In this document: positions 33,286-64,000 of the stretch, piece after piece
Layout of the letters: each line of letters opens with the position of its first letter
Position numbering within the stretch: position 1 is the first letter of the stretch
Assembly: GCA_012840135.1 (NCBI GenBank)
Contig: DUMA01000005.1
Location: forward strand, 79,518 to 143,517
DNA length: 64,000 nt
From: Thermoanaerobacterales bacterium
Lineage (GTDB): Bacteria; Bacillota; Thermosediminibacteria; Thermosediminibacterales; Tepidanaerobacteraceae
Direction: 5' to 3'
Notes under the pieces: generated by a model
Told to the model about the DNA's origin: nothing
The model's input: only the letters and a program-made list of their open reading frames with translations
Databases searched by the model: none
Made by a program: the position numbers and the translations under genes

Positions 33286-34839
33286 CTATAAATTTGGCAA
33301 TTTGGGGTATATTTTTAGTTTGAAATCCTCTACTTTCCCACTCCACCTTCCTCCTTTTTCTTTTATGTAGACTACTTTTTCAAGGACCTCTTTCAGAAGC
33401 TCATTTTTTTCTTTAGGAGTGTTAAGGCTCCAATAAGAATTTATCGTATTTTCCAATTTAGGGATGATATTTTTTTTGCTTTCCTCTCTGGCAGATATTT
33501 TTTCTAATTTATTTTCTAATTCTTTTTTATCTCTTTTTGCAGCAGTTATTTTTTCGTTTAATATTTTTGATCGCTTCAGGAATACTTCGATAGAATAGAT
33601 TCCTTGTTCCAGCAAGTCATGCAAATTATTTAATTGCTTGTCTAAAGTTTTTAAGTCATTATCAATGTTTTCTATAGACTGTTTTATTATATCAGCTTCT
33701 AAGTTACCTTCCAGCGTTTCCTGCTGCTGTATCTTTACTTTATACTTTTTGAGCCAATCCTCTAAGACGCCCAGTAATTTTTTTTCTACAAGGTATAGCG
33801 GGGAGCTGATATTTTTGCAGGTGGGTCCGGTGCATAAAAGAGTATCCGGATAACCGTTTTTATAGGGTTTTCTATTCATTTTTCGGCCGCACATACCGCA
33901 GACAATCAATCCGGCCAGAGGATTTTCAACTTTATATCTGGTCGGAACGGGTAAGGACGGGTTTTCGGCCAGATATTTTTGCGCCAGGTTAAATGTTTCC
34001 TCATCTATGATCGGATCATGCAATCCGTCAACCACAACCGCATTTTTGGCCCGGGGCCTTTCTTTTATCATTTCGCCATTTTTTATTTTTTTTATTTGCG
34101 GCCGCGCTTTCCACCTGATTTTCCCGATGTAGACAGGATTGGATAAAATTCCTCGAATGGTGGAGGTGGTCCAGTCTCCGCCCTTGCGGGTTGGTATTTT
34201 CATTTCGTTTAATCTATTCATGATTAAAGATACACCGATTCTATTGGTACCCGTATACCACTTATAAATTAATCGAACCACGTTTGCTTCGTCAGGGTTT
34301 ACTTCAAGCGTATATCCGGTATCGTTATCAAGTTTTTTTCGTGTATAGCCATAAGGAGGTATATTACCGACATATTTTCCTTCTTTTGCGGACAGAGTTC
34401 TGCCGCGTTGCAGACGTCTGTTTATGGTTTTGTATTCCCTCCTGGACATAAACAGGCCGAATTCAAAGTATTCCTCGTCAAATTCGTTTGAAGGGTCATA
34501 TATTTTCATAGGTGTAATGATTTTTGTGTTTGAGTATTTGAAAGTTTGTGCCACTATTCCCTGATCTATGGTATCTCCACGCGCCAGACGCTCTACTTCG
34601 ACAACAAGAACACCTTCCCACATTCCTCGCTCTACTTCGCTTAGAAGTTCCTGCATAACCGGTCTTGCGGCGATAGTTTCTCCCGATACGATTTCTTTAT
34701 ATATTTTGGTTATATTTATTTTTAACTTTTTTGCCAGCTCAAACAGGATTTTCTCATGCCTGGCCAGGGTTTCACCTTCCCCGCGTGCTTCGGCTTCAAT
34801 GTCGGCTCTGGATTTTCGAAGATACATGCAGTATGCCAA
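33286..34839 (-). CDS. Large serine recombinase (site-specific integrase/excisionase)
   Basis: This protein of about 517 residues has a resolvase catalytic domain (YLRKSRAD with the nucleophilic Ser; VERLARGDTIDQG), a recombinase domain (GYTRKKLDNDTGYTLEVNPD, then WTTSTIRGILSNPVYIGKIRWK), a zinc ribbon (CGMCGRKM...CTGPTCKN) and a C-terminal coiled coil. This is the architecture of phage and ICE integrases and of SpoIVCA. TTG 34839 is preferred because GGAAAGGATG lies upstream; an ATG at 34866 is poorly placed. Its 3' end abuts the split catalase, so it almost certainly performed the insertion and could reverse it. Confidence 0.95.
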   Translation of the reverse strand: MAYCMYLRKSRADIEAEARGEGETLARHEKILFELAKKLKINITKIYKEIVSGETIAARPVMQELLSEVERGMWEGVLVVEVERLARGDTIDQGIVAQTFKYSNTKIITPMKIYDPSNEFDEEYFEFGLFMSRREYKTINRRLQRGRTLSAKEGKYVGNIPPYGYTRKKLDNDTGYTLEVNPDEANVVRLIYKWYTGTNRIGVSLIMNRLNEMKIPTRKGGDWTTSTIRGILSNPVYIGKIRWKARPQIKKIKNGEMIKERPRAKNAVVVDGLHDPIIDEETFNLAQKYLAENPSLPVPTRYKVENPLAGLIVCGMCGRKMNRKPYKNGYPDTLLCTGPTCKNISSPLYLVEKKLLGVLEDWLKKYKVKIQQQETLEGNLEADIIKQSIENIDNDLKTLDKQLNNLHDLLEQGIYSIEVFLKRSKILNEKITAAKRDKKELENKLEKISAREESKKNIIPKLENTINSYWSLNTPKEKNELLKEVLEKVVYIKEKGGRWSGKVEDFKLKIYPKLPNL

Positions 34840-34924
34840 TGTTAAACATCCTTTCCACGCTGTCATGGAACATCTTCTTAATTAGAACAGGTCCGCTATT
34901 TCATTTAAAGATATTTTTGCTTTT

Positions 34925-47561: not shown

Positions 47562-47667
47562 TGGCGGGTGTTGGAAGTGTTCGCAATACTACGATGAAAA
47601 AAGTTGAGAAAATTATCTGCAAATGATACAATAAATTCGAACAATGATTGTTTCGGGAGGGCTTTAT

Positions 47668-48027
47668 ATGGAATCGGTCCAGTCGAAGGAAGACATAATA
47701 GCCGCAAGAAAGCAGCGCCTGGAGAAAGAATTGAGCAAAATTGTTTCAACGTTGATTGAAAAATATGATCCGCTGAAAATCATACTTTTTGGGTCCCTTG
47801 CAACGGGCAATATCCATGAGTACAGCGATATAGATTTGGTTGTAATTAAAAATACTACTAAAAACTTTTATGATAGGCTTGAAGAAATGGTAGATTTGCT
47901 AAAGAAAGATGTCGGCACTGATATTATCGTATATACTCCTGAAGAGGCCAAGGAATTAGAAGAAAGCGATATGTTTTTTAGAGAAGAAGTAATAAAGAAA
48001 GGAAAGGTGCTTTATGAAGCAAAATAA
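47668..48027 (+). CDS. MntA-like minimal nucleotidyltransferase (antitoxin type)
   Basis: This 119-residue protein has the polymerase-beta nucleotidyltransferase motif GSLATGNIHEYSDIDLVVI (about residues 44-62) with the GS and DxD residues intact. In HepT/MntA modules such enzymes modify the HEPN toxin by adding nucleotides. It overlaps a HEPN-domain gene by 14 bp, which supports that reading. ATG 47668 behind GGGAGGGC is chosen over an upstream ATG. Confidence 0.82.
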   Translation: MESVQSKEDIIAARKQRLEKELSKIVSTLIEKYDPLKIILFGSLATGNIHEYSDIDLVVIKNTTKNFYDRLEEMVDLLKKDVGTDIIVYTPEEAKELEESDMFFREEVIKKGKVLYEAK

Positions 48028-48562
48028 ATGGGTAAATTTTTTCTTAGGTGATATTAAGGCAGCAAGTATTATGTTTCGAGAAGAAATGTATAACCATGCA
48101 TGTTTTCATGCTCATCAAGCTGCGGAAAAGGCTTTAAAAGGTTTTCTAGAGGAAAATAAAGTAAATCCTCCAAAGGAACATGATCTTATTGATCTAACTA
48201 AAAGGTGTCAAAAAATAGATAATTATTTTTCCAATATATTATCAAAAGTAGACTTCTTAAACCAATTTTATATACCATCACGTTATCCCACAGCTTTTAT
48301 TGGTTCAACATCAACCGGAATGCCCAGCAAAAACCAGGCCGAAAAAGCCCTTGGATATGCGAAAGAAATAACCGATTTCTGCCTCGATGCAATCAGGCAG
48401 AAGGCTGCCGAAAAGGAAGAAAAGAAGGAAGGACATGCTGAAAACCGCCAGGATAAAAATAATGATATTGACTGGATTGAAGACATTCGGCGGAAGATTG
48501 CCGAGAATGAAAATAAGCCCCGGCCTAAAATGAATGAGCAGGATCGGGGCTTTGACAGATAA
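48014..48562 (+). CDS. HEPN-domain protein (HepT-like) with charged tail
   Basis: This 182-residue protein has a HEPN four-helix domain (residues 1-125; REEMYNHACFHAHQAAEKALKGFL) and a long Lys/Glu-rich tail ending in EQDRGFDR. The classic HEPN RNase motif R-x4-6-H can be read as REEMYNH. The tail is not part of typical HEPN proteins. Adjacent to the nucleotidyltransferase, it may form a toxin-antitoxin pair, although many HEPN/NT pairs have other roles. Confidence 0.78.
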   Translation: MKQNKWVNFFLGDIKAASIMFREEMYNHACFHAHQAAEKALKGFLEENKVNPPKEHDLIDLTKRCQKIDNYFSNILSKVDFLNQFYIPSRYPTAFIGSTSTGMPSKNQAEKALGYAKEITDFCLDAIRQKAAEKEEKKEGHAENRQDKNNDIDWIEDIRRKIAENENKPRPKMNEQDRGFDR

Positions 48563-49182: not shown

Positions 49183-50343
49183 TTGGCACTTAAAGATTCT
49201 TCACCGGAAAAATGGGTATATAAGGAACATACACGAATAAAACATAATATTTTAATGAATTACTTGTCTCCATGGATGGTCAAACTTGGAAAATATTACC
49301 GACATATAATTTTTGTTGATGGTTTTGCCGGAAGAGGAGAATATTTTGATGAAAATGGAAAGTTATTGGCAGTAGGTTCACCCATTAAAGCTTTACAGGT
49401 AGCAAATTCCTTACTGGAAAAGGCTAAAGAAAAAAACAGGCCCCCGTACTTTGATAATTTTACATGTATTTGTCTGGAAAAAGATACTGATAATTATAAA
49501 AATCTTAAAGAAGTGTTAAGCCGTGAGTACGAAAAACTTAAATTTAAAAACAGCTTAGATTATATATTAAAAAATGATGAATTTGCACTTGCAGCAGAAG
49601 ATATAATACGAAAAATCAAATATGAGTTAGCTCCTTCCTTTTTCTTTATTGATCCGTTCGGTTTTAGTGGTGTACCTTTTAAGCTGATAAAAGAAATATT
49701 GTCCTTACCTAGAACGGAAGTTTTTTTTAATTTGATGACGAGAGACATAAATAGATTTTTAAACTTAGAAAGCAATAGAGAAAATTTGCGCAGTCTTTAT
49801 TCAAACATGAAATGGAAGGATATATGTAGTGCATTGTATGGACAAGAAAGGGATGTAGCATTAAAGAATTTATTTATTGAAAACCTTTATAGTGAGGGTA
49901 AAAGTAAATATGTTTCTTCGTTTAGGATGTGCATGAATGAGAGATATCAAACACTTTATTACTTGATTCATGCTACCAATCATTTTGATGGTTTTAAAAT
50001 TATGAAAGATATTATGTTTAAACAAAGTTCTTTTGGCAATTATGAATATTCAGGTCCTTATGATGCTAAAAGAAAAGGTCAAATAAGCCTATTTGATTTG
50101 AGCGGTGCCGACTATGTGGACACTAATAGGCTTGAAAAGATATTAATAGATAGATATAAAAACAAATATGTTAAATGGGAACAGATATTAAAGGATATTT
50201 ACAAAGATACTGAGTATATAGAAACTCATATAAGAAAGGCTGTTAATAATCTTATCAAAAAAGGGTTAGCATTTGTTGAAAAAAATACTGAAAATAAAAA
50301 AGTCGGGAAAATTGGTCCTGGTGATATGGTTAAATTTTTATAG
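49183..50343 (+). CDS. tcmP: Three-Cys-motif partner protein TcmP
   Basis: This 386-residue protein matches what I know of the TcmP family: WVYKEHTRIKHNILMNYL near the N-terminus, HIIFVDGFAGRGEYFDENG (about 45-63) and FFIDPFGFSGVPFKLI (about 160). FVDGFAGRG resembles SAM-binding motif I and IDPFG a catalytic loop of methyltransferase-like enzymes. It is coded with a radical-SAM-like gene 13 bp downstream, its usual partner. TTG start behind GGGGGA. Biological role unsettled. Confidence 0.82.
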   Translation: MALKDSSPEKWVYKEHTRIKHNILMNYLSPWMVKLGKYYRHIIFVDGFAGRGEYFDENGKLLAVGSPIKALQVANSLLEKAKEKNRPPYFDNFTCICLEKDTDNYKNLKEVLSREYEKLKFKNSLDYILKNDEFALAAEDIIRKIKYELAPSFFFIDPFGFSGVPFKLIKEILSLPRTEVFFNLMTRDINRFLNLESNRENLRSLYSNMKWKDICSALYGQERDVALKNLFIENLYSEGKSKYVSSFRMCMNERYQTLYYLIHATNHFDGFKIMKDIMFKQSSFGNYEYSGPYDAKRKGQISLFDLSGADYVDTNRLEKILIDRYKNKYVKWEQILKDIYKDTEYIETHIRKAVNNLIKKGLAFVEKNTENKKVGKIGPGDMVKFL

Positions 50344-50356
50344 GAAGTGAATTGAT

Positions 50357-51142
50357 TTGGAGTATATAAAAAGAAAATCCTTGTTATATAAGACAGGTGT
50401 TGAATATGGAGATTTTACAATAAACCATGTTTTGGGTTGTTCGCATGGATGCAGATTTCCCTGTTATGCCATGATGCTAAATAAGCGTTTTGGCAGAGTA
50501 AAAAGTTATGAGGATTGGTGTCAACCTAAGATTGTAGAGAATGCACTTGAAATTCTTGATAAAGAAATTCCCAAGTATAAAAATAAGATAGAGTTTGTGA
50601 ATTTATGTTTTACAACAGATCCGTTTATGTGTGGTTATCCGGAAATTCAAAAGCTTTCTCTCGAAATAATTAACAAATTGATATCTAATGGAATTAAAGT
50701 TATGGTGCTTACTAAGGGAATTTATCCAAAAGATTTATGTGATAGTGAAAAATACGGGGCTGATAGTATTTTTGGAATAACGCTAGTCTCACTAAATGAA
50801 TTGTTTAGACAGAAATATGAACCGGGAGCATCCAATTACAAAGATCGTATAAATGCTTTAAAAAGGCTCCATGATTCCGGTTTGAAAACCTGGGTCAGTA
50901 TAGAACCTTATCCTACGCCTAATATAATAAAGCAAGATTTAAGAGATATCCTAGAGGCAGTGTCTTTTGTAGATAAGATTGTATTCGGGCGGTGGAACTA
51001 TAATTCAAAGACAAGATGCTATTCGGGTGAGAAACAGTTTTATAATCAGCAGGCGGATATAGTTAAAAATTTTTGTAAGGCTTTAGGAAAAGATTACCAC
51101 ATAAAAGAGGGGACAATAACGGAAGATATTGTGGTTAAATAA
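50357..51142 (+). CDS. Radical-SAM-like partner of TcmP (three-Cys motif)
   Basis: This 261-residue protein has N-terminal CSHGCRFPCYAMM (C-x3-C-x3-C, about residues 28-40), a spacing variant of the radical-SAM cluster motif. A TIM-barrel-like pattern follows (FVNLCFTTDPFMC, IKVMVLTKGIYPKDL, FGITLVSLNE, KTWVSIEPYPTP, DKIVFGRWNY). It belongs to the phage Gp37/68-like group that accompanies TcmP. TTG start overlaps the AGGAAGTGA site. The chemistry is unknown. Confidence 0.82.
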   Translation: MEYIKRKSLLYKTGVEYGDFTINHVLGCSHGCRFPCYAMMLNKRFGRVKSYEDWCQPKIVENALEILDKEIPKYKNKIEFVNLCFTTDPFMCGYPEIQKLSLEIINKLISNGIKVMVLTKGIYPKDLCDSEKYGADSIFGITLVSLNELFRQKYEPGASNYKDRINALKRLHDSGLKTWVSIEPYPTPNIIKQDLRDILEAVSFVDKIVFGRWNYNSKTRCYSGEKQFYNQQADIVKNFCKALGKDYHIKEGTITEDIVVK

Positions 51143-51428
51143 TGTGGCTTTACATCGTGCTCCGCACACCATGTAAAGCTTTTATTATATCCTTTTTTTC
51201 GGGGCCTGGGCACCATTTCCCCTTCGGGTTAATCGTGCCCTTTTATGAAAGAAGGCTTCCGCCTCACGGCCCCAGCCATTATAAACACCGGCAGGGCTTT
51301 AAGTCAAGGGGTTCGCTTCGCCGCCGTGAGCATAAAAGGCCTCCGCCCCGGAGGGTCCCCTCCATTTATCCCTCCCGGCGCCCCTTGACTCCGCCCGCCG
51401 GTTTTTGTTCGGCAGCCAAGCCGTGAGG
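51143..51428. repeat. Structured non-coding element, copy 1
   Basis: There is no gene from 51143 to 51515; most of this stretch is one copy of a repeat whose second copy is at 63750-63995. In order: a hairpin GCTTTACAT/ATGTAAAGC (about 51149-51181) with a T-rich tail; GGGCAC/GTGCCC around CCCCTTCGGG; CTCACGGC pairing with a later GCCGTGAG; and AGTCAAGGGG pairing with CCCCTTGACT. The last two pairings interleave, so an H-type pseudoknot is predicted. GC-rich, unlike the neighbouring genes. The first hairpin probably also terminates the TcmP operon. Confidence 0.8.
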
Positions 51429-51515
51429 CGGTTTTGAAAAAGCGGAAAAAAAGGAGGGGATATATGGAAAATTGCGGCTGTTTGTTGTATAATAACCTTA
51501 AGCAGAGGAGGGAAG

Positions 51516-51926
51516 GTGATGAGCATGGCGGAAAAGGAAATAACAAACAAGACAAAAAGCGAGATAGCGGCGAGTGAGGATAATAATATTTCTCCCAGGG
51601 AACCGAAAATATTCGAATCAGGATATTTCTACCTGTCGCAGCAGATAAATGATTTAAGGGACCGCATGGACGCAAAATTTGATAAGATTGATGAAAAGTT
51701 TAGTAAGATCGATGAAAAATTTGATAAAGTTGATGCAAAATTTGATTCTATGAGAAAAGAAACTGATGCTAGGTTCGATAAAATTGACGCCAGATTCGAA
51801 AAGATTAATGAAAAGTTGGATAAATTCAGTGATAAGATTGATAGTTCTCGAAAATGGGCTATCGGTTCAGTTATAGCGGTTTTGGTCGGTACTATTAGTG
51901 TAATTGTTAATTTAGTGTTGAAATAA
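51516..51926 (+). CDS. Coiled-coil protein with C-terminal membrane anchor
   Basis: This 136-residue protein has a central run of heptads of the form FDKIDEKFSKIDEKFDKVDA (about residues 51-105) and a single C-terminal hydrophobic helix (WAIGSVIAVLVGTISVIVNL). It resembles phage XhlA-like or DUF1640-like anchored coiled coils and the element protein at 35621. GTG 51516 or ATG 51525 may start it, behind AGGAGGGAAGG. Confidence 0.75.
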   Translation: MMSMAEKEITNKTKSEIAASEDNNISPREPKIFESGYFYLSQQINDLRDRMDAKFDKIDEKFSKIDEKFDKVDAKFDSMRKETDARFDKIDARFEKINEKLDKFSDKIDSSRKWAIGSVIAVLVGTISVIVNLVLK

Positions 51927-60549: not shown

Positions 60550-61578
60550 ATGTTTAAAATAGGTCTTGATCTTGGTTACGGTTACGTGAAAGGGGTAAAC
60601 GAGACAGGGAAGGGAATCGTTTTCCCTTCCCTGGTTTCCGCCGCATACGACAGGCCGCTTTCTACCCTGTTCGGCGGGCAAAAGGAAAATCCGATAAACA
60701 ACATGCATCTGGTTATCACCAATGGAGAGAAAGAGGAATATTTTGTGGGCGAACTGGCCCGGCGGGAGGGACATAATGTTTCTTATGCCTTTGACGAGGA
60801 TAAAATCAATCATCCGTCCACAAAGGCGCTCCTGGCAGCGGCTTCGATGATTCTATTTCCGGAGGAGGATGTGCCGGTACACCTTGTCACAGGGCTCCCT
60901 CTGGAACAGTTCGTAAAACAGAAGGCTGAATTTGAAGACATGCTGAAGAACTTTAAGGTTATAGTTTCCTTCAAGGGAGACCAGAAGGTTAAGATCATAA
61001 AATTCGCCAGGGTGACGATATTCCCCCAGGCTGCAGGGGCCGTATACGGCGCCATACTGGACAATATACAGAAATATCTTATCCAGGGCAGCTATATAGG
61101 CCTTATAGATATTGGCTTTAAGACCACAGACTTTATTACTTTCATTGCAGAGGACAAGCTGGTCCTCCGGGAGGATCTTTCCGGCACCATAAATCTCGGT
61201 ATGGCCGCCGTAAACAATGCCGCCGACAAGCTGTTCACCCAGAAGACAGGAAGTAAATTGGACATACCTGAGCTTATGCGGTTGATAAACACCGGGAAGA
61301 TTTTCTATAAAGGCAAAGAACTGGACTTTTCCCAGGAGCTTGCCACAGTGAAAGCCGAAATATCCAGAGTCATAAAGGACAGGATCAAATCGGCCTGGGG
61401 AAGCAAGATTGACTACTTTAACGTGGTCTTTCTTGCAGGCGGCGGGGCAAAGGAGCTTCAATCCGGCCTTTCTGACATATACGAAAAAACGATTCTGGTG
61501 GAAGATCCCCAGTTTGCCAATGCCAAAGGTTTTTTGAAAGTGGCTTCGATAGAGGAAAGGAAGGTGGCCGCTTCGTGA
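60550..61578 (+). CDS. parM: ParM-like plasmid-segregation actin
   Basis: This 342-residue actin-like ATPase of the ParM/StbA/Alp group has phosphate-binding loop 1 GLDLGYGYVKG (about 5-15), phosphate 2 DIGFKTTDF (about 189) and the adenosine motif FLAGGGAKEL (about 298). Such proteins form filaments that push plasmid copies apart with the help of ParR bound to parC. The GTTAAC array and the ParR-like gene directly downstream fit a type II partition system. GGGAGG site two bases past the previous stop codon region. Confidence 0.88.
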   Translation: MFKIGLDLGYGYVKGVNETGKGIVFPSLVSAAYDRPLSTLFGGQKENPINNMHLVITNGEKEEYFVGELARREGHNVSYAFDEDKINHPSTKALLAAASMILFPEEDVPVHLVTGLPLEQFVKQKAEFEDMLKNFKVIVSFKGDQKVKIIKFARVTIFPQAAGAVYGAILDNIQKYLIQGSYIGLIDIGFKTTDFITFIAEDKLVLREDLSGTINLGMAAVNNAADKLFTQKTGSKLDIPELMRLINTGKIFYKGKELDFSQELATVKAEISRVIKDRIKSAWGSKIDYFNVVFLAGGGAKELQSGLSDIYEKTILVEDPQFANAKGFLKVASIEERKVAAS

Positions 61579-63504: not shown

Positions 63505-63535
63505 TATATAAGGATTTTTACCGTTAGTGAAATTT

Positions 63536-63638
63536 CCCGTAACGGGAAAAACCCGATACGGGAAATTCCCGTTACGGAAAAATTCACGTACTAAAATTAA
63601 CAGTATATATTAAAATTAACAGTATATATAAAATTAAC
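63536..63638. repeat. Two sets of short iterated boxes (candidate origin or operator)
   Basis: Three palindromic boxes, CCCGTAACGGG (63536), CCCGATACGGG (63552) and CCCGTTACGG (63568), are exactly 16 bp apart and are flanked by GTGAA and TTCAC. Then TAAAATTAACAGTATATAT is directly repeated at 63592 and 63611, and its first ten bases recur at 63629. Confidence 0.75.
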
Positions 63639-63686
63639 AACAACCTTTTTTCTCAGCTACCGCTGAGGTTGTTGTTTTTTTTAAAA
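63632..63686 (+). terminator. Intrinsic terminator after the iterated boxes
   Basis: AACAACAACC pairs with GGTTGTTGTT across an inner CTCAGC/GCTGAG hairpin, followed by a T run of eight. It also begins with the CAACAACC sequence shared by other hairpins of the element. Confidence 0.75.
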
Positions 63687-63749
63687 TTAAAAGCTTAATA
63701 AAGACGGCGATATAAGCAGATTTGTCCGAGTCTGAATACACCTGAATTG

Positions 63750-63995
63750 TGGCTTTGCATCGTGCCGTCGGAGGCCTCCGGCACCATGCAAAGCTTTTGA
63801 TTATATTTTTTTTCTCAGGTCCGGGCACCATTTCCCCTTCGGGTCAATCGTGCCCTTTTATGGAAGCAGGCTCCCGCCTCACGGCCCCGGCGATTATAAA
63901 TGCCGGCGATGCCTTAGTCAAGGGATGCCGTGAGCATAAACGGCCTCCGCCCCTGAAGGGTCCCCTCCATTTATCCCTCCCGGCACCCTTGACAC
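63750..63995. repeat. Structured non-coding element, copy 2 (to window edge)
   Basis: This is the second copy of the element at 51143-51428. Hairpin GCTTTGCAT/ATGCAAAGC replaces GCTTTACAT/ATGTAAAGC (a compensatory A-T to G-C pair). GGGCAC/GTGCCC, CTCACGGC with GCCGTGAG, and GTCAAGGG with CCCTTGAC are all kept. CGGC/GCCG pairing around ATTATAAAT is stronger here. It may continue past the window. Confidence 0.8.
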
Positions 63996-64000
63996 GTCAC

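Follow-up and report, generated by a model that had tools for sequence, protein, structure and literature searches.

The best-studied promoters acting on single-stranded DNA (ssDNA) are those of enterobacterial plasmids. Two papers describe Frpo1 and Frpo2 of F as T-strand hairpins, which carry a -35 and a -10 box and are present as two same-orientation copies approximately 5 kb apart, upstream of early genes (PMC9849209, PMC11541004). In F, a DUF932 gene (64438-65259) lies behind the region taken here for Frpo1, which was placed using two near-identical upstream stretches and the description in PMC9849209. Single-strand origins (ssos) have been described in ICEs; sso1 of ICEBs1, for instance, is described as a structured ssDNA with three stem-loops (PMC4595007). 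The STAXI motif (Weinberg 2010) is located near SSB and antirestriction genes and is suspected to act as ssDNA (PMC2864571).

The element described here was found in a window of 64,000 nt, the whole stretch of DNA that was analysed. It resembles Frpo1 and Frpo2 in being a predicted T-strand hairpin with -35 and -10 boxes, whose copies share one orientation; SSB and DUF932 genes are also found behind Frpo1/Frpo2 in F, given our own placement of Frpo. Unlike Frpo, however, it possesses a near-invariant apical core, is spread over several phyla and has T4SS or surface-protein genes behind some of its copies. A comparison with the core profile revealed no sequence homology to Frpo of F: the best scores were below 7 bits in F (50000-68000) and ColIb-P9 (1-40000), and R388 gave no match. 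The element shares with sso1 of ICEBs1 that it would be a structured ssDNA in an ICE, but sso1 is described with three stem-loops, and the window element would form one long hairpin with promoter boxes, which is present in several copies. STAXI has SSB and antirestriction neighbours in common with the element, but is a repeated pseudoknot, and no match to it above cut-off was found at the homologous loci. In the literature searched, outside of which most subscription papers lie, six core strings were absent and no title described such an element. The breadth of the element across phyla, the promoter boxes on its minus strand and its conjugation context speak for an element acting as ssDNA. On balance, the evidence tips towards an ssDNA promoter of a conjugative element, which would be Frpo-like and yet unrelated in sequence to Frpo of F.

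Copy 1 (51143-51389) and copy 2 (63748-63993) are 80% identical over 246 nt in a DNA alignment (E 2.3e-60), lie in the same orientation and are separated by 12.6 kb, which bears out the repeat at around 80% similarity reported in a preliminary description of this DNA. The window stops inside copy 2, where its contig also runs out (C37:143517). Contig C1 has an end that overlaps the end of contig C37 with identical sequence and carries copy 2 on; thus, a third similarity match is the remainder of copy 2. The assembly break (window end 64000/end of contig C1) falls inside the copy 2 hairpin. The two copies and the paired segments of copy 1 are located as follows:

51143..51450, plus strand (orientation of the downstream genes): copy 1, the whole element recovered by similarity
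63748..64000, plus strand: copy 2, cut by the contig end and continued in contig C1 (L003/L057)
51147..51179, plus strand: 5' hairpin GCTTTACAT..ATGTAAAGC, then T-rich to 51199; terminator-like for the upstream gene (by eye)
51208..51240, plus strand: second 5' hairpin, GGGCAC..GTGCCC (by eye)
51259..51270, plus strand: outer stem arm CCGCCTCACGGC, pairs with 51420-51431 in the minus-strand fold
51303..51311, plus strand: stem arm GTCAAGGGG, which carries the -35 duplex and pairs with 51381-51389
51381..51389, plus strand: stem arm CCCCTTGAC, partner of GTCAAGGGG
51420..51431, plus strand: outer stem arm GCCGTGAGGCGG, pairs with 51259-51270

No Rfam family accounts for these copies. A search of the window against Rfam, including the HEARO/omega-RNA family raised in the preliminary description, gave no family at gathering score and only matches far below the cut-offs at each copy. 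Among 14 homologous loci, the sole gathering match was a tRNA in L048, and lax scans stayed far below cut-off. HEARO is a mobile-element-associated structure and in this respect like the window element, and an omega RNA had been considered for a mobile gene downstream and the GCCGTGAG motif; however, HEARO (RF02033) has no match in the window's genome (0/1 genomes), and this candidate was rejected. The radC motif (RF01754), linked to radC by name and listed for Proteobacteria, was likewise rejected, since none of six genomes or records contained a match over cut-off (four had weak ones). A 94-aa ORF (51142-51426) overlaps and spans the copy 1 element, probably incidentally, and a short minus-strand ORF starting from the ATG of the core was dropped, its frames differing between the copies (by eye).

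The paired differences between the two copies pointed out earlier are present in the sequence as GCTTTACAT/ATGTAAAGC versus GCTTTGCAT/ATGCAAAGC and AGTCAAGGGG/CCCCTTGACT versus GTCAAGGG/CCCTTGAC. The first of these, the 5' hairpin at 51147-51179, which was not reported by a terminator scan of the window, has counterparts with changed pairs in copy 2 and the Thermosediminibacter-type copies, and the counterpart of the AGTCAAGGGG/CCCCTTGACT stem in nine Thermosediminibacter-type relatives is GGCAAGGGG/CCCCTTGCC. Outside the core, the element contains the GTCAAGGGG/CCCCTTGAC stem and, in the window, also a 12-bp outer stem. The preliminary description had further proposed a pseudoknot. The CTCACGGC/GCCGTGAG complementarity is indeed present in the window copy; however, 51259-51270 pairs with 51420-51431 over 12 bp in the minus-strand fold and the inner GCCGTGAG has its partner in the adjacent CTCCCGGC, so two nested stems fit better and the pseudoknot is not supported. 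When the window copy was aligned with nine Thermosediminibacter-type copies, 2 of the 58 predicted pairs differed in both bases, in either case only in the window copy: the -35 pair, which is GC in the nine relatives, is UA there, and a pair of the inner GCCG/CGGC stem that is GC in eight relatives and an unpaired A.C in one is CG in the window copy. The same ten-copy alignment contains 36 G.U cells versus 7 A.C cells on the minus strand, a count that is biased because the structure was predicted on this strand.

Strand-by-strand folding is a fairer test, since each strand is folded alone. For this comparison, 69 profile matches were reduced to 48 copies by removing duplicates and sequences with short flanks or N. 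In 47 of them the minus strand gives the better fold with DNA parameters, and in 46 with RNA parameters (one tie, one reverse); the minus-strand fold of window copy 1 has a z score of -7.3. The minus strand is thus the folding strand by these predictions, and the element is probably not an RNA. The preliminary description was right about a new, conserved and structured two-copy element with some compensatory change, and a 'transfer site' was among its options; the reading as a plus-strand RNA was not supported. A riboswitch-like or antitermination leader of the downstream operons on the plus strand deserves hardly any credence: the element is located in 5' flanks after terminator-like hairpins and its plus strand also folds in the window copy (z -5.1 as RNA), but that strand is the worse one in 47/48 copies as DNA and 46/48 as RNA (one tie), the conserved G.T pairs of the core would become A.C, and the window has a promoter-like site downstream of the element. 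This site was one of 2 promoter-like sites found in a scan of the window, compared to 0.5 expected:

51465..51493, plus strand: ordinary sigma-70-like promoter for double-stranded DNA, TGGAAA-17-TATAAT (10 of 12), in front of the downstream gene

The apex of the hairpin is formed by a core of around 50-60 bases, which is nearly invariant, contains conserved G.T pairs on the minus strand and reads GAGGAATAAATGGAGGGGACCC - variable hairpin - GGGG(C/A)GGAGGCCGTTTATGCCGC on this strand:

51326..51375, minus strand: apical core of copy 1, GGGATAAATGGAGGGGACCC..GGGGCGGAGGCC.TTTATGC
63930..63980, minus strand: apical core of copy 2 (profile)

A DNA similarity search detected the element in 12 of 199 genomes, its own included, several of which have same-contig sets of two or three, and relatives occur as same-orientation sets of two to four copies. 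With a 22-nt pattern derived from the most conserved part, 30 matching stretches were obtained from genome contigs, including those of Moorella, Thermosediminibacter, Thermoanaerobacter wiegelii, Rhodanobacteraceae, Nevskiaceae and Obscuribacterales; the conservation among these loci is partly due to selection, as an exact 22-mer forces identity over those bases. Viral contigs gave no match to the pattern. The plasmid matches and those of a core model described below were not selected in this way. Plasmid searches added records of Xanthomonas, Shinella, Paracoccus, Eleftheria, Burkholderia and Curtobacterium; a match in Acuticoccus was dropped as no core was found by profile, and the window copy itself had no phage or plasmid match when used as query. 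A 63-position core model, whose E-values are rough and whose training set contained several of the matched sequences, matches 21/398 genomes of the window's own phylum, 2/299 genomes in the order of a Rhodanobacteraceae genome and 19/194 genomes in the class of an Obscuribacterales genome, the starting genome being included each time. All seven same-contig core sets of the own-phylum search have a single orientation. In two genomes of the Obscuribacterales class, two cores were seen only around 560 nt apart on the same strand (G736:C1:505208-505829 and G851:C303:2709-3330). The core is found in Firmicutes, Melainabacteria-class genomes and plasmids of Proteobacteria and Actinobacteria, its carriers being conjugative plasmids and genomic islands; copies L023 and L036 from MAGs titled Delta and Chloroflexi look Melainabacterial and were not counted as phyla. 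Weak core profile matches were obtained for pLNU-11 (12.7 bits), which was used solely in the orientation tally described below, and pTP10 (12.2 bits). A stricter gapped pattern gave no match in L056, though the profile finds the core there.

None of the 13 pairs inside the core is changed on both sides. In an arm-swap test of 22 clusters, seven beat all swaps and twelve rank in the top three, an only partly positive outcome: the Melainabacteria-type representatives L036, L042 and L044 are in the lower half, and 12 of 42 swaps did as well as or better than L010, a decayed copy that represents the window's own cluster. The invariance of the core is a point against an ssDNA promoter, as an ordinary promoter does not need it, and the core is probably a binding or folding module. 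Near-invariance is what is expected of a protein site, and the RSF1010-type primase sites are a precedent for a DNA-binding or processing site of an element-encoded protein, be it an accessory transfer origin, a relaxosome or a primase site. However, the core occurs with MOBF, MOBQ, MOBP and MobL relaxases and in several copies per element, which weakly argues against such a site, and this explanation is considered quite unlikely.

Promoter boxes are found downstream of the core on the minus strand:

51278..51283, minus strand: -10 box TATAAT of copy 1; positions 2, 4 and 5 paired 0.01, position 3 paired 0.32 (ssDNA fold, L001)
51302..51307, minus strand: -35 box TTGACT of copy 1; paired 0.95-1.0 (ssDNA fold, L001)
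63893..63898, minus strand: -10 box TATAAT of copy 2 (by eye)
63916..63921, minus strand: -35 box TTGACT of copy 2, spacer 17 (by eye)

Boxes of the type TTG(A/C)C - 16-19 nt - TATAAT-like are present in 26 of 27 Firmicute-type copies (all but L009), with TTGCCG, TTGCCC, TTGACC and TTGACT as -35 and TATAAT, TACAAT and CACAAT as -10 versions. These boxes match at 8-11 of 12 positions with p values up to 0.027 (300 letter shuffles each), and on the matching plus-strand side p<0.03 was reached in 2 of 48 copies. The 21 non-Firmicute copies have no convincing boxes (best p 0.027). The predicted fold rebuilds the -35 and -10 in 25 Firmicute copies including window copy 1, and in none of the 21 non-Firmicute copies. 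These 25 of 48 copies were chosen for TTG and at least five of six TATAAT positions, and their mean pairing in the predicted ssDNA fold is 0.85 in the -35, 0.69 in the spacer, 0.23 at positions 2-5 of the -10 and 0.73 downstream; L010 and L021 average more than 0.5 paired at these -10 positions. The predicted fold, with its -35 duplex and mostly open -10, would resemble a promoter that is already open.

As a duplex, the minus-strand boxes of the window copy are a plausible leftward promoter (11 of 12), and a small regulatory RNA might be transcribed from it through the 5' hairpins; in L004, a terminator-like stem follows the leftward start. A duplex promoter scan of L004 detected no promoter, its spacer of 19 nt exceeding the limit of the scan. 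We give little credence to such an RNA: the core, the most conserved part, is upstream of the start and would be outside the RNA, many copies have spacers of 18-19 nt, which is long if the promoter acts as a duplex, no Rfam family matched above cut-off, and the window scan showed no terminator after the leftward start.

The element of the window contains T4SS genes and a recombinase, and the elements of its relatives carry T4SS or relaxase genes. Two genes of the window belong to this setting:

33286..34866, minus strand: large serine recombinase (Recombinase, Resolvase; Pfam), likely the integrase of the host conjugative element
60550..61578, plus strand: actin-like protein of the ParM type, belonging to the same element and present as well in those of G013 and G283

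More broadly, 33286-64000 and L057 contain recombinase, T2SSE ATPase, A24 peptidase, ParM-like actin, VirD4, TrbL and VirB4-like genes. A search for the MobL family found no MobL relaxase in the window's genome, unlike in those of the relatives G013 and G283; its T-strand was thus inferred from relatives. During conjugation, the relaxase gene as a rule enters the recipient last. In R388 and its relatives, the stb genes are located at the 3' side of the nick and are the first to enter (PMC3098194). The oriT side, which is predicted and not mapped, was deduced from the position of the stb or relaxase genes, including the looser relaxase-last rule. Of 14 core-bearing records or genomes (11 plasmids, G013, G283 and the window's own), six were left out because no relaxase or stb gene was seen or because they are unannotated, and in seven of the eight judged replicons the folding strand is the predicted T-strand. 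The stb rule fits the plasmids of X. albilineans and X. euroxanthea, each with two copies, and a Burkholderia plasmid without a recognised relaxase, in whose relaxase candidate LPD7 alone was found. The relaxase-last rule fits Curtobacterium (MobF), pLNU-11 (MobA/L, weak core), G013 (MobL, three copies) and G283 (MobL, four copies), which shares its genus code with a Moorella mulderi match. Under the stb/traL rule, pVEIS01 does not fit, its core being on the wrong strand, though it is codirectional with the relaxase.

Downstream genes were defined as the longest ORF within 600 nt, and 19 of the 23 listed were scanned with Pfam, the first ten chosen by eye. RadC was found three times, the ArdC N-domain three times (all in Moorella loci), SSB twice (one match below the curated cut-off), and SpoVG and KfrA_N once each; the remaining nine belong to another family or to none. 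Two Xanthomonas plasmids have a DUF932 gene behind their copies. Copy 1 is followed by genes for a 136-aa protein with no family and for surface-type proteins, which are not classic early genes:

51450..51466, plus strand: Shine-Dalgarno-like AAAGGAGGGG and ATG (51464), just downstream of copy 1 (by eye)
51516..51926, plus strand: gene downstream of copy 1, 136 aa, no Pfam family

The arguments from strand and geometry apply identically to an sso, in which the folded T-strand would recruit RNA polymerase or primase only to prime the complementary strand, the genes behind it being incidental; ssos have been described in ICEs (PMC4595007), and with several copies per element less time would be spent in single-stranded form. 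However, copies are repeatedly found a few hundred nt at most ahead of RadC, ArdC, SSB or DUF932 genes, and the ribosome-binding-like site behind copy 1 is not needed for priming. A function restricted to priming is thus rather unlikely, and the element is most likely an Frpo-like promoter of a new family, which might also serve as a primer site. For such a promoter, the transferred strand would be the one complementary to the downstream genes; folded as a long hairpin, it would restore in its stem a -35 and a -10 usable by the RNA polymerase of the recipient, thereby mimicking an open promoter. From the base of the hairpin, the polymerase would run onto the 5' tail of this strand, which is the template for the genes behind the element; these could then be expressed before second-strand synthesis, with ordinary promoters taking over afterwards; the RNA might also prime second-strand synthesis. 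A more far-reaching and tentative proposal, which seems possible but doubtful, is that the elements are pan-bacterial zygotic promoters, in which the near-invariant apical ssDNA core is read by a factor common to the hosts and loads transcription onto the T-strand of conjugative elements with many mobility types, switching on genes element-wide, beyond a single leading operon, before the DNA has become double-stranded. With the 63-position core model, conjugative elements of Firmicutes, Proteobacteria, Actinobacteria and Melainabacteria could be searched for genes expressed early and for the side on which oriT lies, and the reading of an incoming strand before it is double becomes testable via the element.

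Further observations concern the surroundings of the two copies. Directly upstream of copy 1, 49183-51142 holds a gene pair that looks like cargo of the conjugative element; one gene encodes a 386-aa protein whose GMT-like wHTH match is weak, falling just short of the cut-off, and the other a radical SAM protein. A nucleotidyltransferase-like and HEPN-like gene pair was noticed at 47644-48562 (by eye), and a nucleotidyltransferase gene is also found behind the copy in L027. Between an HTH gene and copy 2, the stretch 63520-63640 contains short repeats, both inverted and direct (CCCGTAACGGG-like; AAATTAACAGTATATAT twice; by eye), which are possibly an operator or a replication site.
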